Source: Candidatus Auribacterota bacterium
Lineage (GTDB): Bacteria > Auribacterota > JAFGBW01
Length of the DNA stretch: 21,445 bases
Direction: 5' to 3'
Assembly: GCA_016932965.1 (NCBI GenBank)
Contig: JAFGBW010000023.1
Coordinates: 1 to 21,445 of the forward strand
The notes beneath the pieces are model-generated. The model was not told the DNA's origin. It saw only the letters and a program-made list of their open reading frames with translations, and searched no databases. Both the position numbers and the translations under genes were made by a program. Shown here piece after piece: positions 1 to 19,180 of this stretch (position 1 is the stretch's first letter; the number at the start of each line of letters is the position of its first letter).

Positions 1-129
1 ATGATCACTTTGGAAGACGCGATGATAGAACGCATTCAGGCAGGTGACATCAATGTGATCGAAGCCATGGAACACGCCCCGGACCCCGGTCAGTTCAAAA
101 AAGTATTGACTTCACGCGGGATACTCTGA
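1..129 (+). CDS. PilT-like type IV pilus retraction ATPase, C-terminal fragment
   Basis: Only the last 42 codons of this gene lie in the window; the reading frame is already open at base 1 and ends with TGA at 127-129. The peptide contains ITLEDAMIERIQAGDINVIE followed by an APDPGQFKKVL stretch. This is the typical tail of PilT/PilU ATPases, a TLEDAL-type helix followed by a '(D/N)PEEFKRLL' helix. PilT-family proteins are cytoplasmic hexameric ATPases that drive pilus retraction, which agrees with the prepilin genes nearby. The ATG at base 1 is most likely an internal methionine, because the catalytic domain must lie upstream. None of the Walker or Asp/His-box motifs can be inspected, so retraction ATPase versus a relative (PilB/GspE) rests on the tail alone. 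Confidence 0.7.
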   Translation: MITLEDAMIERIQAGDINVIEAMEHAPDPGQFKKVLTSRGIL

Positions 130-165
130 TCCGGATAAAGATACCCGGATTTCTGATCTTTTTTA
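129..165 (+). terminator. Candidate intrinsic terminator after pilT-like gene
   Basis: A 6-bp perfect stem, ATCCGG at 129-134 with CCGGAT at 145-150, has a 10-nt loop and overlaps the stop codon. A T-rich stretch follows, with TTTTTT at 159-164. An alternative stem AAAGAT/ATCTTT (137-142/156-161) runs directly into the T tract. The gap between the GC stem and the T run is longer than ideal. Confidence 0.5.
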
Positions 166-378
166 TCTGCTGAAGGCATGAATCATTCTTCCTTCCATTC
201 GTATTATTCGTTATTTTTCGTAAGTCATCTTCCCACATTCAAATACATTCAGGACGATAGCTCAGCTAAATCCGCTCAGTCCGGTTGTTCATCCTTTGTT
301 TATTAAAAAAGCAAGAATATAACCGTTCTGAATTACACATGTTCTCTTCTCCCCCATTCCGTATGATTTGAACGATCA

Positions 379-421
379 GATTAAATACCACTGGTAGAGC
401 CGGTGGTTTACCGGATTAAAT
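379..421. repeat. Dyad/palindrome with 5-nt centre, flanked by 8-bp direct repeats
   Basis: CCACTGG (388-394) pairs with CCGGTGG (400-406) across a 5-nt centre (395-399), with one G-T wobble. Outer TAAA (382-385) can pair with TTTA (407-410) around a 2-nt bulge. GATTAAAT occurs on both sides, at 379-386 and 414-421, leaving 27 bases between. Two readings are possible: a binding site for a dimeric regulator about 200 bp upstream of the sigma-54-like promoter, or a small REP-like palindromic insertion with a target duplication. The structure is visible; the role is inferred. Confidence 0.5.
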
Positions 422-541
422 TATTCACATCAGCATGACCTGTCTTCAGTGGCAGAAAAGTAACTTTCAATTTTATTTTTTTGTAAATATTAAACCTGTG
501 ATCAAAAAATCCCCCTTTTGAATATTTTCTAACTTCCGCGA

Positions 542-569
542 TTGCAAAAAGTTAGGAATATCATATAAG
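542..569 (+). promoter_or_regulatory. Candidate sigma-70-type promoter
   Basis: TTGCAA at 542-547 and TATAAG at 564-569 are separated by 16 bases (4/6 and 5/6 matches to consensus). A further TATAAT sits at 609-614 without a good -35. In AT-rich DNA such matches can arise by chance. Confidence 0.35.
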
Positions 570-578
570 CCTGAACAA

Positions 579-595
579 CTGGTATATCAGTTGCT
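579..595 (+). promoter_or_regulatory. Candidate sigma-54 (-24/-12) promoter
   Basis: The 17-mer CTGGTATATCAGTTGCT keeps the defining GG and GC dinucleotides of sigma-54 promoters with exactly 10 bases between them. It matches the YTGG and TTGCW blocks of the consensus, but the central CACG is replaced by TATA. Transcription would begin near 606, giving a leader of about 100 nt before the ATG at 706. A sigma-54-dependent activator is encoded about 4.5 kb downstream on the same strand. Confidence 0.5.
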
Positions 596-693
596 TTTCC
601 TGCTAAAATATAATGAGACCACCTATCCTTAAAAAGCAGATTGAACAGAACAATAGCTGAACAAAAAAAATGAATGATGAATTTAATCATATA

Positions 694-700
694 AAAGGAG
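694..700 (+). promoter_or_regulatory. Ribosome binding site fixing the start at 706
   Basis: AAAGGAG with a 5-base spacer to ATG 706. This chooses 706 over the ATG at 670, which has no such site. Confidence 0.75.
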
Positions 701-705
701 AAACC

Positions 706-1923
706 ATGAAAACAATGATCCATCACTTTATTTTACTCGGCGTTATGCTGATCCTGGGGATGCATCCTTATATTTTGGATGCCGAACAGGCCGCGTCCAT
801 TACTTCTATGGCTCCTGACCAGGCCAATCTGGTCAATCCGGAAGAGGACAAGGACAAGTTACTCAAAGAGGCACTGAAGCAGAAAGAGAATATTCAAGCT
901 TCAACGGCGGATTACAATCGGACCATGATTCTGAAAAAAGCTTTGGAAAATGAAAAGATAAAACAGGAAGAAATGGAATTTCTAACCGCCGTCCTGGAAC
1001 AGCAGGAAAATTCTTCTTCTTTATCAAGGATTTCAAAAGAAACCATTCAGGCCATTATCAATGTCCTGAAAAATGAAACAGATCATCTCCGGGCAATCAT
1101 TCGTGATATTTTCCCGGAAACGTCCAAGGGAGAAAAGCCGCTTTTGACTTTTCTTCAGGAAACCCTCGGAATGGATGAATCACAGAGTAAAGCTGCTGCA
1201 AAAGAATTGAGAAGAGGCAACCCCTCTGATGAATTCATGGAGAAAAATTTATTATGGCTCATCCAAAAATCCGTGGAAACCAATCATTCCTTTTCCTGCG
1301 TGACCATTTCAACCAAACCGGACGATGCTTTGAATCAGAATCAGGGCATCACATTCAATTTAAATGACGACAATCATTCCTCCATTTCCCTCCTTTTTGC
1401 ACCTGAGAACCAACAGTTGATTGGGGTCCAGAAAAAATCCGATCAGGGAGTCACGATCGAAAAAATTGCGGATGATGTGTCGTCTGAATCTTCGATAAAT
1501 ACGGCTGCAATACAGGACAGCGTCAATCAAGACAGCACTCAAATGTTACCGGAGTCAATCAGGCAGTTACAGGCAGAACTGCAGGAGTTGTTCGGCTCTG
1601 CCTATTCCATTACAGTGGTACAGCTTCCAAGCATTACATTGCTTGGAGCGCCGTCATTTTTTGAGTTCACAGTAACCTCCTTAGCTGAAGAAACAGAACC
1701 AGGCGCTTTGAAGGTAATTTCTTTTAATGTAAAATTACCTGTTGCGGAGGCTATTCCTGGAATACCCTCTTTGATTCCGGGAAGCATCCGTGTCCAATAC
1801 GCAGGTCTAACGACCCAGCCGTCCGGAAAGATGCTGTATGAAGGCCTGCCCCAAATGGTTCCTTCAACGGTTCCGCTGCGTCCGGAAGAGATCCTTTCCC
1901 TGATGAAACAAATCAAAATCTAA
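706..1923 (+). CDS. Exported protein of unknown function, first part of a frameshifted two-repeat protein
   Basis: I recognise no family. The start at 706 is chosen because AAAGGAG at 694-700 sits 5 bases upstream and the protein then begins with a clear signal peptide (charged start, hydrophobic core at about residues 8-24, likely cleavage after ILDA near residue 27). The in-frame ATG at 670 would bury this signal. Residues about 45-180 are charged and helical; about 185-265 look beta-rich. From residue 281 runs a domain with landmarks QAELQELFG, GSIRVQY, QPSGKMLYEGLPQM and LMKQIKI. The same domain recurs in the next reading frame (1979-2515). This frame stops at TAA 1921-1923, inside the domain relative to the second copy, so the product is probably truncated. 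Merging both frames gives about 602 residues. Probably periplasmic or secreted. Confidence 0.75.
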   Translation: MKTMIHHFILLGVMLILGMHPYILDAEQAASITSMAPDQANLVNPEEDKDKLLKEALKQKENIQASTADYNRTMILKKALENEKIKQEEMEFLTAVLEQQENSSSLSRISKETIQAIINVLKNETDHLRAIIRDIFPETSKGEKPLLTFLQETLGMDESQSKAAAKELRRGNPSDEFMEKNLLWLIQKSVETNHSFSCVTISTKPDDALNQNQGITFNLNDDNHSSISLLFAPENQQLIGVQKKSDQGVTIEKIADDVSSESSINTAAIQDSVNQDSTQMLPESIRQLQAELQELFGSAYSITVVQLPSITLLGAPSFFEFTVTSLAEETEPGALKVISFNVKLPVAEAIPGIPSLIPGSIRVQYAGLTTQPSGKMLYEGLPQMVPSTVPLRPEEILSLMKQIKI

Positions 1924-2512
1924 AGACGTCTCCAGTTCAGGAGATGTCCGGTATCTGTGGAAGAATCACTACTGGCGCATGTATAAGGACAGTGACGGTA
2001 AAGTGAGGGTGGAAAGAGACACTTTACCGGCGGCAAGCCGGGACTATCAGGAGAAACTGGCTGAACTTTTTGGAGACAAATATTCCATCTCAGTGGAAGA
2101 TCTGATGGACATAGCCATGGTGGGACAGCCTGACCACTTTAAATTTAAGATTACGAACAATACTGAAAAAGTTGACAGGGGATATTTGAGAGAAATCAGC
2201 TTCAATATGAGCATACTGGATGCAAAACCAGTTGTTCTTCCTGAAACGATCCGCGTTCAATATGAATCCATTAAAATTCAACCAAGCGGACTGATGCTTT
2301 ATAAAGGACTTCCTCAGATGCTCAATACTTCTACTTCGTTCAGTCCGGAACAAACTTTACTGTTGATGACACAAATCAGGGTATATTCGGTTCAAAGAAA
2401 TAGAACCATTGATTATTCATGGAAAGATCAAAACGGTAAATTGAGTTTCTGGAGAATGGTGATGGACGCTCGTGAAAATGTGAAGGTCTACAGAACAAGA
2501 GTTATATACCAA
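1546..2512 (+). repeat. Tandem intragenic duplication of a ~160-residue domain
   Basis: Copy 1 covers 1546-2023 and copy 2 covers 2024-2512 (about 159 and 163 codons after removing one base). Shared landmarks in order: LP at the start, LxELFG, YSI, FxFxVT/FKIT, ISFN, IRVQY, QPSG, MLY-GLPQM, LMxQI, WK, WRM, and a D..KV.V.R tail. The copies are diverged in sequence, so the duplication is not recent. Confidence 0.75.
1913..1925 (+). other. Frameshift site (one extra base) between the two domain copies
   Basis: Reading continues in the next frame after QIK if one base is skipped here: one A of the AAAA run at 1915-1918, or the T at 1921 (ATC T AAA GAC). After skipping it, copy 1 aligns without gaps to copy 2 from LMxQI through the shared WK, 18 residues in each. 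The frame upstream of 1979 is open back to this point. I see no SD-like stimulator directly upstream such as the one in prfB, so a mutation or sequencing indel is more likely than programmed frameshifting. Confidence 0.7.
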
Positions 2513-2515
2513 TAA
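1979..2515 (+). CDS. Second part of the frameshifted exported protein (domain copy 2)
   Basis: This 178-codon frame encodes the second copy of the domain seen at the end of the 706 gene (LAELFG, ISFN, IRVQY, QPSGLMLYKGLPQM, LMTQIRV), followed by a tail with SWKDQNGKLSFWRM and KVYRTRV. The ATG at 1979 is unlikely to be a true start. It has no ribosome binding site at the right distance, no signal peptide follows, and the frame is open upstream into sequence matching the missing end of copy 1 (YLWKNHYWRM). I therefore read it as the 3' part of one gene broken by a single-base shift near 1921. Cellular location would be that of the joined protein. Function unknown. Confidence 0.6.
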   Translation: MYKDSDGKVRVERDTLPAASRDYQEKLAELFGDKYSISVEDLMDIAMVGQPDHFKFKITNNTEKVDRGYLREISFNMSILDAKPVVLPETIRVQYESIKIQPSGLMLYKGLPQMLNTSTSFSPEQTLLLMTQIRVYSVQRNRTIDYSWKDQNGKLSFWRMVMDARENVKVYRTRVIYQ

Positions 2516-2537
2516 TACGTCTGGATAACACAATCCT

Positions 2538-2570
2538 AAGTGGTCCGGAAAAAGTCACTTTTGGTTTTTT
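2538..2570 (+). terminator. Weak candidate terminator
   Basis: AAGTG (2538-2542) and CACTT (2556-2560) form a 5-bp stem with a 13-nt loop, followed by TTGGTTTTTT. The stem is short and AT-rich. The same T-rich stretch overlaps a weak promoter, TTGGTT (2561-2566) with TATATT (2584-2589), 17 apart, which could serve the pilin gene at 2618. Confidence 0.35.
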
Positions 2571-2617
2571 ATTCGTGCTTTATTATATTAAACCAGATAA
2601 AATAGGGGAGGGTAACA

Positions 2618-3232
2618 ATGAACCAAAAAAGCCAAGCATTCACCCTGGTTGAGATACTGGTGGTCATCGGTATCATTTTTATCTTAACGAGTCTGGTTAC
2701 CTGGGGTATTCAAAAAGCCTCACGATATGCAAAAAATCTGCAATGCCTGAAAAATCTCAAAGAATTGCATCTCAATACTCTTCTTTATTTTCAGGATAAC
2801 CAGCAATTACCGGAGTCCTCTTTTTTCAGCACAGTATTACCCCAGGATAAAGCAGCCTTGATCCGATGCCCTTCTATATCCGCCTCGGCAAATCAGGAAG
2901 CAGGGCAACGAGATCGCTCTATTTATGTTATTTTTCAACCCTTCATAACGTATGTAAACTCCTCAAAAAAATTCATTCTTGAAAACGGGAATCACGGCAT
3001 CATTTTTTGTTGTGATCCTACTATCAAACCTCATTCGGATTTTTCCAATGGAATTCTCGATTCAGGCCAATGCGTCCAACTGATCGCTTCAACTGCCGGA
3101 AGTGTTCCCGGGGTGGGAGGGATGCTGCTACCTTTGAAACACTCTTCTGACCTTGAGGATAGATTCATGGTCGGACTTCAAACAAAAAAGGATAAATATT
3201 GGACCATTTTAAGTCCCACTATCCAACCATAA
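2618..3232 (+). CDS. Prepilin-type N-terminal cleavage/methylation protein (pilin-like)
   Basis: The N-terminus carries a class III signal: a short basic leader, then QAFTLVEILVVIGI with the cleavage point before F and glutamate at +5. A single hydrophobic helix (about residues 8-30) follows. Such proteins are processed by PilD and assembled into type IV pili or type II secretion pseudopili through that helix. The C-terminal region (about 40-204) resembles the DUF1559/H-X9-type pilins only loosely. It has a CLKNLKELH segment typical of pilin-like proteins and six cysteines, but none of the GspG calcium-site motifs seen in the pilins at 16.5-17.7 kb. The start is supported by GGGGAGGG about 5 bases upstream. 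The gene lies 13 bases before the sensor kinase, probably in the same transcript. Exact role (minor pilin or pseudopilin) is not resolved. Confidence 0.85.
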   Translation: MNQKSQAFTLVEILVVIGIIFILTSLVTWGIQKASRYAKNLQCLKNLKELHLNTLLYFQDNQQLPESSFFSTVLPQDKAALIRCPSISASANQEAGQRDRSIYVIFQPFITYVNSSKKFILENGNHGIIFCCDPTIKPHSDFSNGILDSGQCVQLIASTAGSVPGVGGMLLPLKHSSDLEDRFMVGLQTKKDKYWTILSPTIQP

Positions 3233-3245
3233 AATTGAACTCTGG

Positions 3246-5147
3246 ATGCCGATATTGAACAAAAAAATAGCCCTGAATCCCCTTCTCTTGTCTCTTCTAT
3301 TGGTTGTATTTTCTTATTCATTGAATGATCTTTTTCCTTTTTTTAATCGTCTCAGTCTTAAATTCAGCGACTACTCACGTAATTTCGCCTATTTGAGCGG
3401 CCTCAAGCCTTCCATTGGAAAAGAGGCTGTTTTTATCATGATTGACCAGAAAACGCTTGATGAATTCGGCACACGCTTTCCTTTTCCCAGGAAATGGATT
3501 GCGGAAATATTAGAGAAAATTGCCCAAGCCAATCCCCGTCTTCTTGCCATGGATTTGACCTTTGGCGGAAATTCAGAGAATAAGGAAGAGGATATCCTGC
3601 TGGCGCAGGCAATTAAAAAGTTAAATAAAAAGACCGTACTGTTTACTTATATTGATGAAAATATGGCGATTAGCCCCCTGTTACAGGAGGCATATGAAGC
3701 GGCATCAGGCATAGGAATCATCAATCTGATTCATGATCCTGACGGGATTATCCGGTCAGCTCTTCCCTATTATATTGATCCCAAAACCGGGAAAATTGTT
3801 TTTTGCGCTGAGTCCTTGCTGGCGCTGAGATATCACGATTTGCCTCTCTCGGATATTGCACAGGACAGGTCAAAAAATGCTCTTATTTTCAAAACAAAAA
3901 ATTCGCCTCTTAAGCCGGCCTATTTTGATTCGAAATTCAGGCTGGAATATAAAGAATACTTCAGAACTCAGGATCTTCAATCTATTTCTTTTTGTGATGT
4001 TTACCAAGGCCGATATGATATGAATCTGCTGGAAAATAAAATCGTGTTTATAGGCAATCAGACCCTTATTCAGCATGATTTTCATCTGACTCCGTCAGGA
4101 GTGCAGGCAGGGATAAACATAGTTTATAATATTTTTCTGACTTTTATTAACGGCAGTTTTCCAAGACCCATGCCTTATGGTTTAAGCTGGATTGGGATGG
4201 TCATTTTAGTCTGGTCAGGATTAGCGGTGCTTTTTTCATTTACTCACGGAAAGAATCTTCTGGCTGTTTTTCCTATCCTCCTATTGATGTGGATAACAGA
4301 TTATATTTTTTTCAGGTTGAACATCACATGGAACGGTTTTTTACCTGTTTTCTGCATCGCTTCAGCAGCGCTTGTCAGGGAAGGATGGTTTTATTATGAG
4401 ACCTGGATAGATAATCTTAAGATAAAAAATAAATTAAAAGAAACACAGAAGGAAATCCTCTTATCCCAAAAACTGGCTAACGTAGGAAAAATAGCCGCTC
4501 AAATCGCCCATGAATTAAAAAATCCTCTTGGAAATCTGATCAACATGAAACTTTGGTTCAGGCAGTATATCCCTGCAGAGCATCCGGCCAATGAATGTAT
4601 TGAAGCACTGGATAAAGAGGCGCAGCGAATGCTGAAGCTGTCTCAACAGATGCTTCAGTTTTCAAGACCGGCAAATGAAAACTATAAAGCTGCGGATATT
4701 CATGATCTGATCAAGGATACGTTGGGATTTCTAAAAGGGTCACTTGACAAGAAAAAAATCCAGTTAAAAACCTCTTTTTCTCCGGCCAGGGCATTTTTGC
4801 GGGGTAATGCGGATCAATTAAAACAGGTTTTCTTGAATCTGATCATGAATGCCATGGATGCCATGGAAGACGGTGGTGAGTTAACCATTGAAACAAAGGT
4901 AGTGAATAGTATTATTGAAATCCGGATTTCGGATACCGGGATGGGAATATCCAAGGAAAATTTGGAAAAAATCTTTGACCTATTTTTCACAACCAAAGGG
5001 GAAAAAGGGTCCGGCTTGGGATTGAGTATCTGTCATGATATCATCAAGAAACATAACGGACGGATTCTGGCAGAGAGTGAAGAAGGAAAAGGTTCAACTT
5101 TCCTTCTTATCTTTCCTTTAGGAAAAACGGAGAAAAATCATGAGTAA
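3246..5147 (+). CDS. CHASE2-domain membrane sensor histidine kinase
   Basis: The 633-residue protein begins with a membrane segment (about 10-28). It continues with an extracytoplasmic CHASE2 sensor domain (about 35-305; VFIMIDQKTLDEFG, PRKWIAEIL, AMDLTFGG, DPDGIIRSALPYY, KIVFIGNQT) and then three closely spaced membrane helices (about 313-335, 338-358, 364-380). This is the usual CHASE2 layout. A coiled linker leads to the HisKA helix with phospho-acceptor His422 in AHELKNPLGN, followed by HATPase_c: N-box NLIMNAMDAM (531-540), G1 DTGMG (563-567), F-box FDLFFTTK and G2 GEKGSGLGLS (585-594). All catalytic motifs are intact. The gene overlaps the response-regulator start by 8 bases, so the two form a cognate pair. 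The signal sensed by CHASE2 is generally unknown. The start has only a weak ribosome site; coupling to the upstream pilin gene is likely. Confidence 0.93.
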   Translation: MPILNKKIALNPLLLSLLLVVFSYSLNDLFPFFNRLSLKFSDYSRNFAYLSGLKPSIGKEAVFIMIDQKTLDEFGTRFPFPRKWIAEILEKIAQANPRLLAMDLTFGGNSENKEEDILLAQAIKKLNKKTVLFTYIDENMAISPLLQEAYEAASGIGIINLIHDPDGIIRSALPYYIDPKTGKIVFCAESLLALRYHDLPLSDIAQDRSKNALIFKTKNSPLKPAYFDSKFRLEYKEYFRTQDLQSISFCDVYQGRYDMNLLENKIVFIGNQTLIQHDFHLTPSGVQAGINIVYNIFLTFINGSFPRPMPYGLSWIGMVILVWSGLAVLFSFTHGKNLLAVFPILLLMWITDYIFFRLNITWNGFLPVFCIASAALVREGWFYYETWIDNLKIKNKLKETQKEILLSQKLANVGKIAAQIAHELKNPLGNLINMKLWFRQYIPAEHPANECIEALDKEAQRMLKLSQQMLQFSRPANENYKAADIHDLIKDTLGFLKGSLDKKKIQLKTSFSPARAFLRGNADQLKQVFLNLIMNAMDAMEDGGELTIETKVVNSIIEIRISDTGMGISKENLEKIFDLFFTTKGEKGSGLGLSICHDIIKKHNGRILAESEEGKGSTFLLIFPLGKTEKNHE

Positions 5148-6486
5148 ATTGCTCCTGGTGGATGATGATGAGACTTTTCTGAAAATCACTGTCAGTTTTT
5201 TGAATCAAAACGGGTGGGAAGTTGAAACAGCGGAAAATGCAAAAGATTTTTTCATGAAACTGGATCCGGAAGAAATTTCTTCGGTCCTCGTGGATTTGCA
5301 ACTACGGAATGAATCAGGAATTGATATCATCAAGGGCGTGCGTCTTCAGCATCCGTATATACCGATCATGATGTGCACGGCCCACGGAACCATTGAAACA
5401 GCCGTTCATGCTATGAAACTCGGCGCTCTGGATTATATTTTAAAACCGATCAATTATGATGAACTTCTCATCAAATTGAACCGGATAGAGGGGGAGAGAT
5501 TAAGAAACTCAGAATTAAAAGAATTACAATCCCGTTTCAAGTTGCGCCAGACATTTGACGATCTCATAACCCAAAACCCCGAAATGAAAAAAATCATAAC
5601 GCTGTGCCGTTCGATCCTTCACACCGATACGACTATTCTAATACAGGGAGAAACCGGCACAGGGAAAGAAATATTAGCCAAAGCTATTCATTTTGAAAGT
5701 GAGCGGAGGATGAAACCTTTCGTAGTGGTTAATTGTGCCGCCATACCGGAAAACCTCATTGAAAGCGAGCTGTTCGGTCATGAGAAAGGCGCATTCACTG
5801 ACGCTTTGTGCAGAAAAAAGGGAAAATTTGAAGCCGCCGCTGATGGGACTCTTTTTCTGGATGAAATCGGAGAACTCCCTTTGAAATTACAGAAGAAGAT
5901 TCTACGGGTGCTTCAAGAGCAGGAGTTTGAAAGAATCGGCTCAACACGCACGCTCAAATCCCGCTGCAGAATCATTGCCGCAACAAATCGTGATTTAAAA
6001 AACATGGTGAATGCTGGCAGATTCAGAGAAGACCTCTACTATCGTTTAAAAGTCTTTCCCGTTTTTGTGCCTCCGCTCAAAGAAAGAAAAGAGGATATTC
6101 CTCTTCTCATTGATTTTTTTATGAAAAAATATTGCGTTAAATATAACCGGAACACTTTAAAGGTCTCTTCTTCCTTTATAACCGCTGTTCAAAATACGGA
6201 TTTGCCGGGAAATGTACGGGAATTGGAACATTTGGTTGAAAAAAACATCATCCTGTCCTCAGGGACAAAATTGGAATTTCATTCCGATTCCTCCTTTCAG
6301 CCGGACTATGCACACGAAGAAATCGAAGACAGCTACAAAGATTTTATCAGAAAAAAGGAAAGGATTTATTTTTCAGCCATCCTCAAGCGCTTCCATGGGG
6401 ATACGGAGAAAGCCGCTGAATTTGCCAAAATATCACGAAAAACAGTCTATGATAAAATAAATAATCTGGACTTGAAAACTCAGTAA
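5140..6486 (+). CDS. NtrC-family sigma-54-dependent response regulator
   Basis: Three domains are visible in 448 residues. The receiver (1-115) has the acidic pocket DDDE (8-11), phospho-acceptor Asp52, Thr80 and Lys102. The AAA+ domain (about 140-370) has Walker A GETGTGKE (170-177), Walker B LFLDEIGE (238-245), and the arginine-finger region RFREDLYYRL. A Fis-type helix-turn-helix closes the protein (about 405-445, EKAAEFAKISRKTVYDKIN). The sigma-54 contact loop reads GAFTDA (217-222) instead of the more common GAFTGA; this position varies in natural members, so the protein is probably still an activator. When phosphorylated by the CHASE2 kinase it should bind dyad sites upstream of sigma-54 promoters. 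The candidate site at 579-595 is the only promoter of that type I found here. Proximity to pilT and pilins makes a PilR-like role possible. Confidence 0.93.
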   Translation: MSKLLLVDDDETFLKITVSFLNQNGWEVETAENAKDFFMKLDPEEISSVLVDLQLRNESGIDIIKGVRLQHPYIPIMMCTAHGTIETAVHAMKLGALDYILKPINYDELLIKLNRIEGERLRNSELKELQSRFKLRQTFDDLITQNPEMKKIITLCRSILHTDTTILIQGETGTGKEILAKAIHFESERRMKPFVVVNCAAIPENLIESELFGHEKGAFTDALCRKKGKFEAAADGTLFLDEIGELPLKLQKKILRVLQEQEFERIGSTRTLKSRCRIIAATNRDLKNMVNAGRFREDLYYRLKVFPVFVPPLKERKEDIPLLIDFFMKKYCVKYNRNTLKVSSSFITAVQNTDLPGNVRELEHLVEKNIILSSGTKLEFHSDSSFQPDYAHEEIEDSYKDFIRKKERIYFSAILKRFHGDTEKAAEFAKISRKTVYDKINNLDLKTQ

Positions 6487-6506: not shown

Positions 6507-7331
6507 TCATTTCTTAGGTTCCAGGAAGAGCTCCTTCTTTTCAAAATCGATCTTAAAAATAAAATGCTCGAAAAAAGCCATTCCCAATAGTCCCGGATTG
6601 TTGCCAAAAGCCGTCTCCAGGACAAATCCGGGAATATTATTTACTACATTCCCTCCCACATCCACTGAATCAAAAAAAGTTTTCCTGGCCCATACCGTCT
6701 GTCCGTTGGCCAGGTGCACATGATAACGTTCCCTTCTCAAAGGCAAATGAAGGGTCTGGGCCAAAGACGGGGAAATGAGCATGTGGGAGCAGCCGGTATC
6801 CAGAAGAAAGGGAATCTTGATTTTTTTATTGATGGAAACATCCACGAACAGGCTTTTTCCTATCTGGGTCAGCCTGATCTTTTTTGATGAGCTTTTTAAC
6901 GCACTTCTTAATCGGGAAAGCCGCTCTTCCATTTCCGCGGCGATGGCTTCCATCTCAGCCATGACTATTTTTGTGAGACACGTTCCTCCAAAAGTGATCG
7001 CCTGGCGTGAATGATACAGGGCCTGTTCCATATCTGTTTTTGAATCATCCCCGTAATAGATCAGATGGTGATAATATTTCCTCGCGTTTTCAACATAATC
7101 GTCTACTTTACTCTTCAGAGCAAGCTCCTGATTTTTTAGCTCTTCCTTAGAAGGCGGCCGGACTTCTTTTCCGCATTGCAGGCAGTAACGGTCCTCTTTT
7201 TCATTTAAAAACCCGCAGCTGCTGCACTTTTCTTTTTCTGCTGAAAGAAAAAAAGATAATGAAATAAAAATGAAAAGCAGGACGGCCGGTTTAAAAATAA
7301 CGGAAAACCCTTTTTTTGGTCCCCGTTTCAT
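6507..7331 (-). CDS. Exported zinc-ribbon, retropepsin-like aspartyl protease
   Basis: A basic N-terminus and hydrophobic helix (about residues 11-30) form a signal peptide or anchor. A zinc ribbon follows immediately, with CSSC (36-39) and CLQC (50-53). Residues 60-150 are helical. The C-terminal part (about 150-274) resembles single-domain retropepsin-like proteases (clan AA): the catalytic LLDTGCS (176-182, Asp178), a flap-like HVHLANGQTV segment, and the closing pattern GLLGMAFFEHFIFKID. These enzymes act as dimers. A periplasmic location is inferred from the leader. The ATG overlaps the TGA of rfaE1 (ATGA), so translation is coupled. The substrate is unknown, and neighbourhood suggests envelope biogenesis only by association. 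A zinc ribbon placed outside the cytoplasm is unusual. Confidence 0.8.
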   Translation of the reverse strand: MKRGPKKGFSVIFKPAVLLFIFISLSFFLSAEKEKCSSCGFLNEKEDRYCLQCGKEVRPPSKEELKNQELALKSKVDDYVENARKYYHHLIYYGDDSKTDMEQALYHSRQAITFGGTCLTKIVMAEMEAIAAEMEERLSRLRSALKSSSKKIRLTQIGKSLFVDVSINKKIKIPFLLDTGCSHMLISPSLAQTLHLPLRRERYHVHLANGQTVWARKTFFDSVDVGGNVVNNIPGFVLETAFGNNPGLLGMAFFEHFIFKIDFEKKELFLEPKK

Positions 7332-14966: not shown

Positions 14967-16118
14967 ATGGTTTCTTCTGATTCAAATTCGATTTCAGGTA
15001 TTTTGGATGTCCATTCCAAAGGATTTGGGTTCGTAAGACAAAAATCCCATTTATACAGCGAATCCGATAATGATCCCTATGTTCCTCCTGAAATGATCAG
15101 ACGGATCCGGTTGAAATCAGGTTGTCTGATAGAAGGGGAACAGGGTGTGGGAAGAGAAGGCAAACCGGTCCTGTCCTTCATCTCCACCGTCAATGGATTG
15201 TCTCCGGATGCTTTTTCCAGGCTCCCTGCCTTTTCATCCCTGACCACCATATCTCCGGATGAAAAAATCCATCTGGAAACCAAAGGAGGCCCTTTGTCCA
15301 TGAGGATCATGGACCTTCTGGTCCCTCTTGGAAAAGGGTCACGTTCCCTGATTGTTTCACCTCCAAAAGCCGGAAAAACCACCATACTGAAAGAACTCGC
15401 CCATGCCGTTGCCGTCAACCATCCGGAAATCCAGATTTACGCTCTTTTAATCGACGAACGGCCTGAAGAAGTAACCGATATCCGGCGTTCCATCAAAGGA
15501 GAAGTTTTGGCTTCCAGCATGGATCAGAGCATCGGTAATCATGTCAGGCTCGCCAGGCTTGCCAGTGAAATGGTAAAAAGAAAAGTGGAAGCAGGTGAAA
15601 ATGTTTTTCTTCTCATCGATTCCATCACTCGCGTCTCCCGGGCATTCAACAATATGGAAGGTAATTCCGGCCGAACATTAAGCGGAGGCCTTGATTCCAG
15701 GGCCATGGAATTCCCGCGCTCTTTTTTCGGCTCAGCCAGAAAAATCGAACACAAGGGCAGCCTCACGATCATCGGCACAACCCTGGTTGAAACAGGGTCC
15801 CGCATGGACGAACTCATTTTCCAGGAATTCCAGGGAACCGGCAACCAGGAGGTCATCTTAAGCCGCAAGCTCGCCGACAAAAGAATATTCCCCGCCATCG
15901 ACATCATCCGCTCCAGGACACGGCGCGAAGAACTGATTCTTTCCCCGGATGACCTCGAGGCAGCGACACGCATCCGGAAGGGACTTTCAGGCTTGAATCC
16001 TGATGTCGCCATGGAAAGACTCATCGAAACCATCCAGAAATATGAAACCAATGCCGACTTCGTCCGCATGCTTTTAAACGCCAAAGTCTCCAAGTCCACT
16101 CCTATCAGGGAAGACTGA
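14967..16118 (+). CDS. rho: Transcription termination factor Rho, short form
   Basis: 383 residues, compared with about 419 in E. coli. The protein starts almost directly with the cold-shock-type RNA-binding fold (GILDVHSKGFGFVRQ, DPYVPPEMIRRIRLKSGCLIEG), so the usual N-terminal helical Rho_N domain is missing. The ATPase part is canonical: Walker A SPPKAGKTT near 130, LIDERPEEVTD(I)RRS with GEVLASS, Walker B LLIDSITR, the R-loop/secondary RNA site SGGLDSRAMEFPRSFFG, and GTGNQEVILSRKLADKRIFPAID. Rho is a hexameric RNA helicase that terminates transcription. A GATAGGA ribosome site lies about 5 bases before the ATG. It stands alone, with a structured leader upstream that could serve autoregulation, which is known for rho in other bacteria by attenuation. 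Two hairpins cover its end. Confidence 0.95.
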   Translation: MVSSDSNSISGILDVHSKGFGFVRQKSHLYSESDNDPYVPPEMIRRIRLKSGCLIEGEQGVGREGKPVLSFISTVNGLSPDAFSRLPAFSSLTTISPDEKIHLETKGGPLSMRIMDLLVPLGKGSRSLIVSPPKAGKTTILKELAHAVAVNHPEIQIYALLIDERPEEVTDIRRSIKGEVLASSMDQSIGNHVRLARLASEMVKRKVEAGENVFLLIDSITRVSRAFNNMEGNSGRTLSGGLDSRAMEFPRSFFGSARKIEHKGSLTIIGTTLVETGSRMDELIFQEFQGTGNQEVILSRKLADKRIFPAIDIIRSRTRREELILSPDDLEAATRIRKGLSGLNPDVAMERLIETIQKYETNADFVRMLLNAKVSKSTPIRED

Positions 16119-18406: not shown

Positions 18407-19180
18407 GTGAAGAAATTAATTTACTTCTTCATTGTTCTGGTGTTAGGGGTACTGGCTTTTTTTTATTACCAATTCGGCATCACCTCGTTATACGGCGTCA
18501 ACGGCCTGGGTAAAATTCCCGTTTCCTGCATGTATTGCCAATATAAAAACCGGTGGGATGACAAATACTGCTGGAAGTGCGGAAAACAGACCTATCCGCT
18601 GCAAAAATGCCCCTCATGCGGATACGAGAATGTGCTCACCGACACGTATTGTGTCCAATGCGCAAAAGAACTGCCTCCCCTGTCGTATCTGTTACAATTA
18701 AAAAGATGGATCATCAAAAAACGGGCAGGGATGTCCATAGCCGTTCAAAAACCTTTGTCCCAGGAAGACTCGCCTGTTGTCTCCTTTATCAGGACCCTGT
18801 TTAACCACGTCACTGAAAAACCGGAACCAAGTCGCGCCCCTGTTTCGTCTCGGGTTGAAAAAAAGCCGGCGGCACCTCCCAGGCAGGAGCTCATCACGAT
18901 TACCTGGAGGAAACCGGACAACAGCAAAAAACACAGCATTTACTTAAAAGCAGAAAATAAAAATCCGACAGGCGTCAATGTGGATATCCGTGTCGCGTTC
19001 TCCAATTTCTGGACTGGTTACAAGGATGAAACGACTGTCAGAATGAGTCTTCAGCCTAATTCTTTCCTTGAAAAGGAAGTCTATCTGCCTAGTTATTATG
19101 TCCCGAAACAAAAGGCTTCTTACGACTCAAATTATTCCGTGGATAAAACAGAGATCGTGACCTTTCAGCCCTGGGGATAA
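18407..19180 (+). CDS. Membrane-anchored double zinc-ribbon protein
   Basis: 257 residues beginning at GTG 18407 with an excellent AGGGAAGGA ribosome site six bases upstream. Two lysines and a hydrophobic helix (about 4-23) form a signal anchor. Two zinc ribbons follow: CMYC...CWKC (about 41-58) and CPSC...CVQC (about 69-86), the double-zinc-ribbon pattern. A basic, proline-rich linker leads to a C-terminal beta-rich domain (about 160-257; ITITWRKPD, KAENKNPTGVNVDIRVAFSN, SLQPNSFLEKEVYLP), which looks like an Ig/FxLYD-type fold. By the positive-inside rule the ribbons should be outside the cytoplasm. The function is unknown. It ends 4 bases from the convergent TPR gene. Compare the zinc ribbon in the aspartyl protease at 6.5-7.3 kb. 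Confidence 0.75.
   Translation: MKKLIYFFIVLVLGVLAFFYYQFGITSLYGVNGLGKIPVSCMYCQYKNRWDDKYCWKCGKQTYPLQKCPSCGYENVLTDTYCVQCAKELPPLSYLLQLKRWIIKKRAGMSIAVQKPLSQEDSPVVSFIRTLFNHVTEKPEPSRAPVSSRVEKKPAAPPRQELITITWRKPDNSKKHSIYLKAENKNPTGVNVDIRVAFSNFWTGYKDETTVRMSLQPNSFLEKEVYLPSYYVPKQKASYDSNYSVDKTEIVTFQPWG

Follow-up and report, generated by a model that had tools for sequence, protein, structure and literature searches.

Two open reading frames follow one another on the forward strand of a 21,445-nt contig of a Candidatus Auribacterota bacterium (hereafter the window, meaning the whole stretch of DNA that was analyzed): one runs from ATG 706 to 1923, the other from 1979 to 2515. They are the frames described in an initial annotation of this DNA, which had proposed that both belong to a single exported protein with two tandem copies of one domain, split by a one-base shift. 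The locus raises the question of whether it holds two genes, one gene whose reading frame is shifted in a regulated way or one gene that has been broken, and, in the last case, by what. The features on which the answer depends are the following.

696–700, forward strand: Shine–Dalgarno-like AGGAG, 5 nt upstream of ATG 706, read from the sequence
706–2515, forward strand: joined reading, the putative unbroken form of the gene, 602 residues
706–783, forward strand: signal-peptide-like N-terminus MKTMIHHFILLGVMLILGMHPYILDA, read from the sequence by eye, with export putative
784–1545, forward strand: N-terminal region, predicted mostly helical, with a possible helix and four strands at residues 175–253 (AlphaFold2, low confidence)
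1546–1920, forward strand: main part of domain copy 1, in the frame of ATG 706, with 44% identity to copy 2
1907–1923, forward strand: zone of the frame switch, from the opening of the +1 frame at 1907 to the TAA (1921–1923) that closes the 706 frame
1922–2023, forward strand: +1-frame tail of domain copy 1, spanning ATG 1979, recognized by its match to the copy 2 tail
1925–1948, forward strand: 9-bp hairpin GACGTCTCC-AGTTCA-GGAGATGTC, beginning 1 nt after the TAA (MFE -15.3 kcal/mol, z -2.5)
2018–2512 (stop at 2513–2515), forward strand: domain copy 2, complete, recognized by its similarity to copy 1 and modelled by AlphaFold2 (pLDDT 87, pTM 0.82)

A duplicated domain and a switch of reading frame

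The main part of copy 1, which comprises the last 125 residues of the 706 ORF, shares its 44% identity with the stretch at 2024–2383 in the second frame. The local alignment of copy 1 with copy 2 scored 256, and 301 when the tail in the +1 frame was joined on, whereas none of 1000 shuffles exceeded 50, which bears out the earlier claim that the end of the 706 frame is homologous to the 1979 frame. Similarity of this order indicates that the two tandem copies arose through internal duplication. Their divergence (dN 0.49, dS 2.5) is saturated at synonymous sites and is therefore uninformative on recent selection.

The initial annotation had also placed the missing end of copy 1 in the other frame, at 1922–2023, and there it was found. 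The +1-frame tail of copy 1, VSSSGDVRYLWKNH-----YWRMYKDSDGKVRVER, aligns with VQRNRTIDYSWKDQNGKLSFWRMVMDARENVKVYR of copy 2 with a score that only 2 of 5000 shuffles reached. With the copy 2 tail alone as query, which provides a non-circular test of the +1-frame tail, the copy 1 tail came out first of all 660 stretches that run from stop to stop in the window (E 0.04). A match of 1913–2026 to profile A3 was discarded as circular, that profile including the very same stretch. The 18-residue ungapped match leading up to a shared WK, to which the annotation had drawn attention, exists in the sequence, but the part of the tail before ATG 1979 does not reach significance by itself (343 of 5000 shuffles); the evidence for the +1-frame tail is the whole tail, as aligned, continuing through ATG 1979 to about 2020.

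The +1 frame opens at 1907 and that of ATG 706 terminates at 1921, which confines the switch to 1907–1923. The skipped base had been suggested near 1921, but the change of frame need not lie there and may be anywhere in this zone. The stretch is A-rich (1907–1924), with A runs of 3, 4 and 3. When codon usage was scored with the window's other genes as training set, frame 0 was favoured as far as about 1900 and the +1 frame thereafter, clearly so from about 1990, which locates the frame change at about 1900–1930. Downstream of the switch the +1 frame stays open for 197 codons, a length equalled in none of 20 000 dinucleotide-Markov sequences, and no further lesion was found in it, leaving a single break in the gene. 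Read across this break, the 602 residues have a signal-peptide-like start, followed by a helical stretch and then by the alpha/beta domain twice. The proposal of an exported protein that carries its domain twice in tandem and is split by a one-base shift is upheld in this respect by the homology of the copies and by the +1-frame tail, export being the putative part of it.

Predicted fold, search for relatives and gene neighbourhood

An AlphaFold2 prediction for the joined protein, made without an alignment, was uninformative (pLDDT 35), and the first 190 residues were predicted as helical with low confidence. Copy 2 was modelled confidently when copy 1 was supplied as the only other row (pLDDT 87.1, pTM 0.82), in the predicted order of a helix, four to five strands, two helices and four strands. 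Both halves of the modelled domain have a helix packed on antiparallel strands, as do the small alpha plus four-strand domains of cystatin/PepSY-like proteins; such proteins of the YpeB/YpmB kind are also extracytoplasmic. When the predicted domain was compared with known structures by VIA-align, the best Z was 5.9, for 4r80 (70 residues), with 5.7 for 5boi, the C-terminal domain of YpeB (65 residues, 2.9 Å), and 4.5 for 2gu3, YpmB (61 residues, 3.4 Å), all of them values in the range of chance arrangements or unrelated folds. Foldseek with the predicted domain returned no match at E<=0.001 and none under E 0.07, and Pfam gave no PepSY match at E<=5. We regard a cystatin/PepSY-like fold for each domain half, as suggested by the model, as a lead only.

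In the bacterium's own genome, the sole matches were the two copies themselves. Sequence and profile searches retrieved no homologue from sets of 59 and 384 relatives, nor did a search of 44 genomes of the phylum, two of which belong to the same order. The phylum search gave six weak matches besides the window (E 0.16–0.32, each of 36–45 residues), which were rejected: two, when read through, were glycosyltransferase-like ORFs by eye, and the others lay in short or unrelated frames. Phages, IMG/VR viral contigs and plasmids held no homologue, and no match was found in Pfam, NCBIfam, PHROGs, PADLOC or the PDB sequences. As far as these sets were searched, the putative exported two-domain protein appears to be an orphan known from one genome and, since no homologue was found, orthologues cannot decide the cause of the break. 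Rfam showed no match in 1–3300, and a promoter scan gave a signal about equal to that of shuffles.

Three neighbouring genes, all downstream and on the same strand as the orphan gene, were assigned from their Pfam domains.

2618–3232, forward strand: prepilin-like protein (N_methyl, PF07963, E 3.6e-5)
3246–5147, forward strand: CHASE2 sensor histidine kinase (CHASE2, HisKA, HATPase_c)
5140–6486, forward strand: NtrC-type sigma-54 response regulator (Response_reg, Sigma54_activat)

The succession of a prepilin-like gene and a CHASE2 kinase occurs three times in the genome: in the window (2618–5147), on contig C195 (L097) and on contig C1 (L096), where the prepilin-like gene is reduced to a remnant. 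Matches to the kinase query in the two same-order genomes fell almost entirely in its catalytic half. As it draws on this neighbourhood, a role together with the sensor kinase is a guess, according to which the product would be an extracytoplasmic protein that may assist the CHASE2 kinase encoded 0.7 kb downstream, as a partner or as a ligand-binding accessory.

Next to the prepilin-like gene and the paralogous kinase on contig C195 lies a helical exported protein, divergent and of unassigned family. We do not claim it as a homologue of the orphan protein; any similarity is N-terminal and weak at best (score 60, 1 of 1000 shuffles), and hhalign gave a probability of 7%. Elsewhere in the window, 14967–16118 encodes a Rho of 383 aa without the usual N-terminal part, which passes one NCBIfam Rho model's cut-off but falls short of another's, and which is near the model for a short-form Rho paralogue too. 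The proteins encoded at 6507–7331 (reverse strand) and 18407–19180 (forward strand) have a signal-peptide- or membrane-anchor-like start with zinc-ribbon motifs directly after it, and one of the two carries a retropepsin-like aspartyl protease domain; extracytoplasmic zinc ribbons would be unusual.

Explanations for the break

Were the two ORFs genuine genes, the first would encode an exported protein with one domain and the second a separate protein, cytoplasmic or translationally coupled, starting at ATG 1979. In both ORFs the frame is open and the codon usage resembles that of coding sequence, and ATG 1979, the earliest start codon of the +1 frame, is only 55 nt beyond the TAA. This codon, however, stands inside the copy 1 tail, which runs in the +1 frame before and across it; no nearby or well-spaced Shine–Dalgarno motif accompanies it in the sequence, and the ORF that it opens has no signal peptide, yet the homologous domain belongs to an exported protein. 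Because the homology crosses its only start and an export signal is absent, we consider a separate second gene very unlikely. Slippage of the A runs, either as phase variation, which the annotation had raised, or during transcription, could be sought in the A-rich stretch at 1907–1924, but the longest run there is 4 and no simple or tandem repeat was found near the site. Tracts known to slip are far longer than runs of at most 4 A. Phase variation at this short run is thus unsupported, and slippage of either sort seems extremely improbable.

Another suggestion of the annotation, that ribosomes are programmed to shift to the +1 frame at ATC TAA A, would yield two forms, a short one with a single domain and a long one with both. 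The sense of the shift fits, the 9-bp hairpin is located 3′ of the stop, and the organism apparently uses +1 frameshifting in its own prfB; here, as at a prfB-type site, an in-frame stop interrupts the gene and the continuation lies in the +1 frame. The elements of prfB sites are a Shine–Dalgarno-like run, a slippery CTTT and a weak TGA C stop context (PMC12421855). The organism's own prfB (L108, G000:C204, position 1506) has a canonical +1 site, GGGAGG TTT CTT TGA C, with every sequence element present, whereas all three are missing at the break: AAACAAATCAAAATCTAAAG occupies the place, 3 nt before the slippery codon, where prfB has its purine-rich element (GGGAGG), ATCT is found instead of a CTTT or TTTT run, and the stop context is TAA A rather than TGA C. 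The usual prfB signal thus exists in this genome, and the break site does not resemble it. Re-pairing of tRNA-Ile from AUC to UCU would also be poor. Conservation of recoding at the site cannot be shown, there being no orthologue in the 44 phylum genomes or the 384 relatives. As for the hairpin, an equally good fold arose in 1 of 200 shuffles and about six stems as strong occur in the window; to find one beside the break is uncommon, though it was spotted post hoc. A hairpin 1 nt past the stop would be unwound already once the stop is in the A site, and its position, too close to the TAA, does not suit a downstream recoding stimulator and makes it an oddity. We give programmed frameshifting at this site a very slim chance. 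A non-canonical, hairpin-assisted +1 recoding at the UAA, by which a one-domain and a two-domain exported protein tied to the CHASE2 kinase would be made, strikes us as exceedingly improbable.

The locus is very probably one gene for an exported product of about 600 residues, interrupted by a single small indel in 1907–1923 that is either an error or a recent mutation. Homology crosses the break into the other frame, and the downstream frame is open and coding-like; the strong hairpin at the break was counted against this reading. The unbroken gene, 706–2515, would encode the signal-peptide-like start, the helical stretch and both tandem alpha/beta domains in one frame, which the indel would break in the present assembly. 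As the searched sets hold no orthologue, it is from the internal duplication only that we infer the unbroken ancestral state.

The literature ascribes orphan, unclustered frame transitions mainly to overlap of genes, errors in sequencing or mutation by indels (PMC3711429), and regards many apparent pseudogenes as assembly errors, breaks of this type being commonly created that way (PMC11017572). The present case is like such orphan fs-genes and frame-broken singletons (PMC3711429; PMC11017572) in its single transition, its lack of relatives and its lack of a recoding motif; it differs from orphan fs-genes in that the internal duplication reveals the frame switch without orthologues, and in no other notable way. 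Of the four causes listed in the annotation, a sequencing indel and recent decay are the two left standing. We put the chance that the break is an assembly or sequencing error at about even. None of the 37 near-full-length ABC_tran domains of the genome contains an internal stop and none of the remaining genes of the window appears frame-broken, so that the assembly does not look error-prone, which speaks against an error and mildly for a real mutation; to a recent inactivating mutation we assign a probability somewhat short of even. If the break is real, the cell would make a 405-residue product missing the last strands of copy 1 and the whole of copy 2; lacking both a start signal and an export signal, the downstream part would not be made in useful form. 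The lesion being single rather than one of several, it would then be young.

The finding has little significance beyond the source genome, the protein family being new only as an orphan and the explanation of the break an ordinary one. Gene callers will give two wrong proteins at this locus. What the locus adds is an orphan, putatively exported protein whose duplicated domain could be modelled with confidence and whose gene adjoins a sensor-kinase cluster, together with a clean case in which a frame break is exposed by internal duplication alone and an orthologue is not needed.
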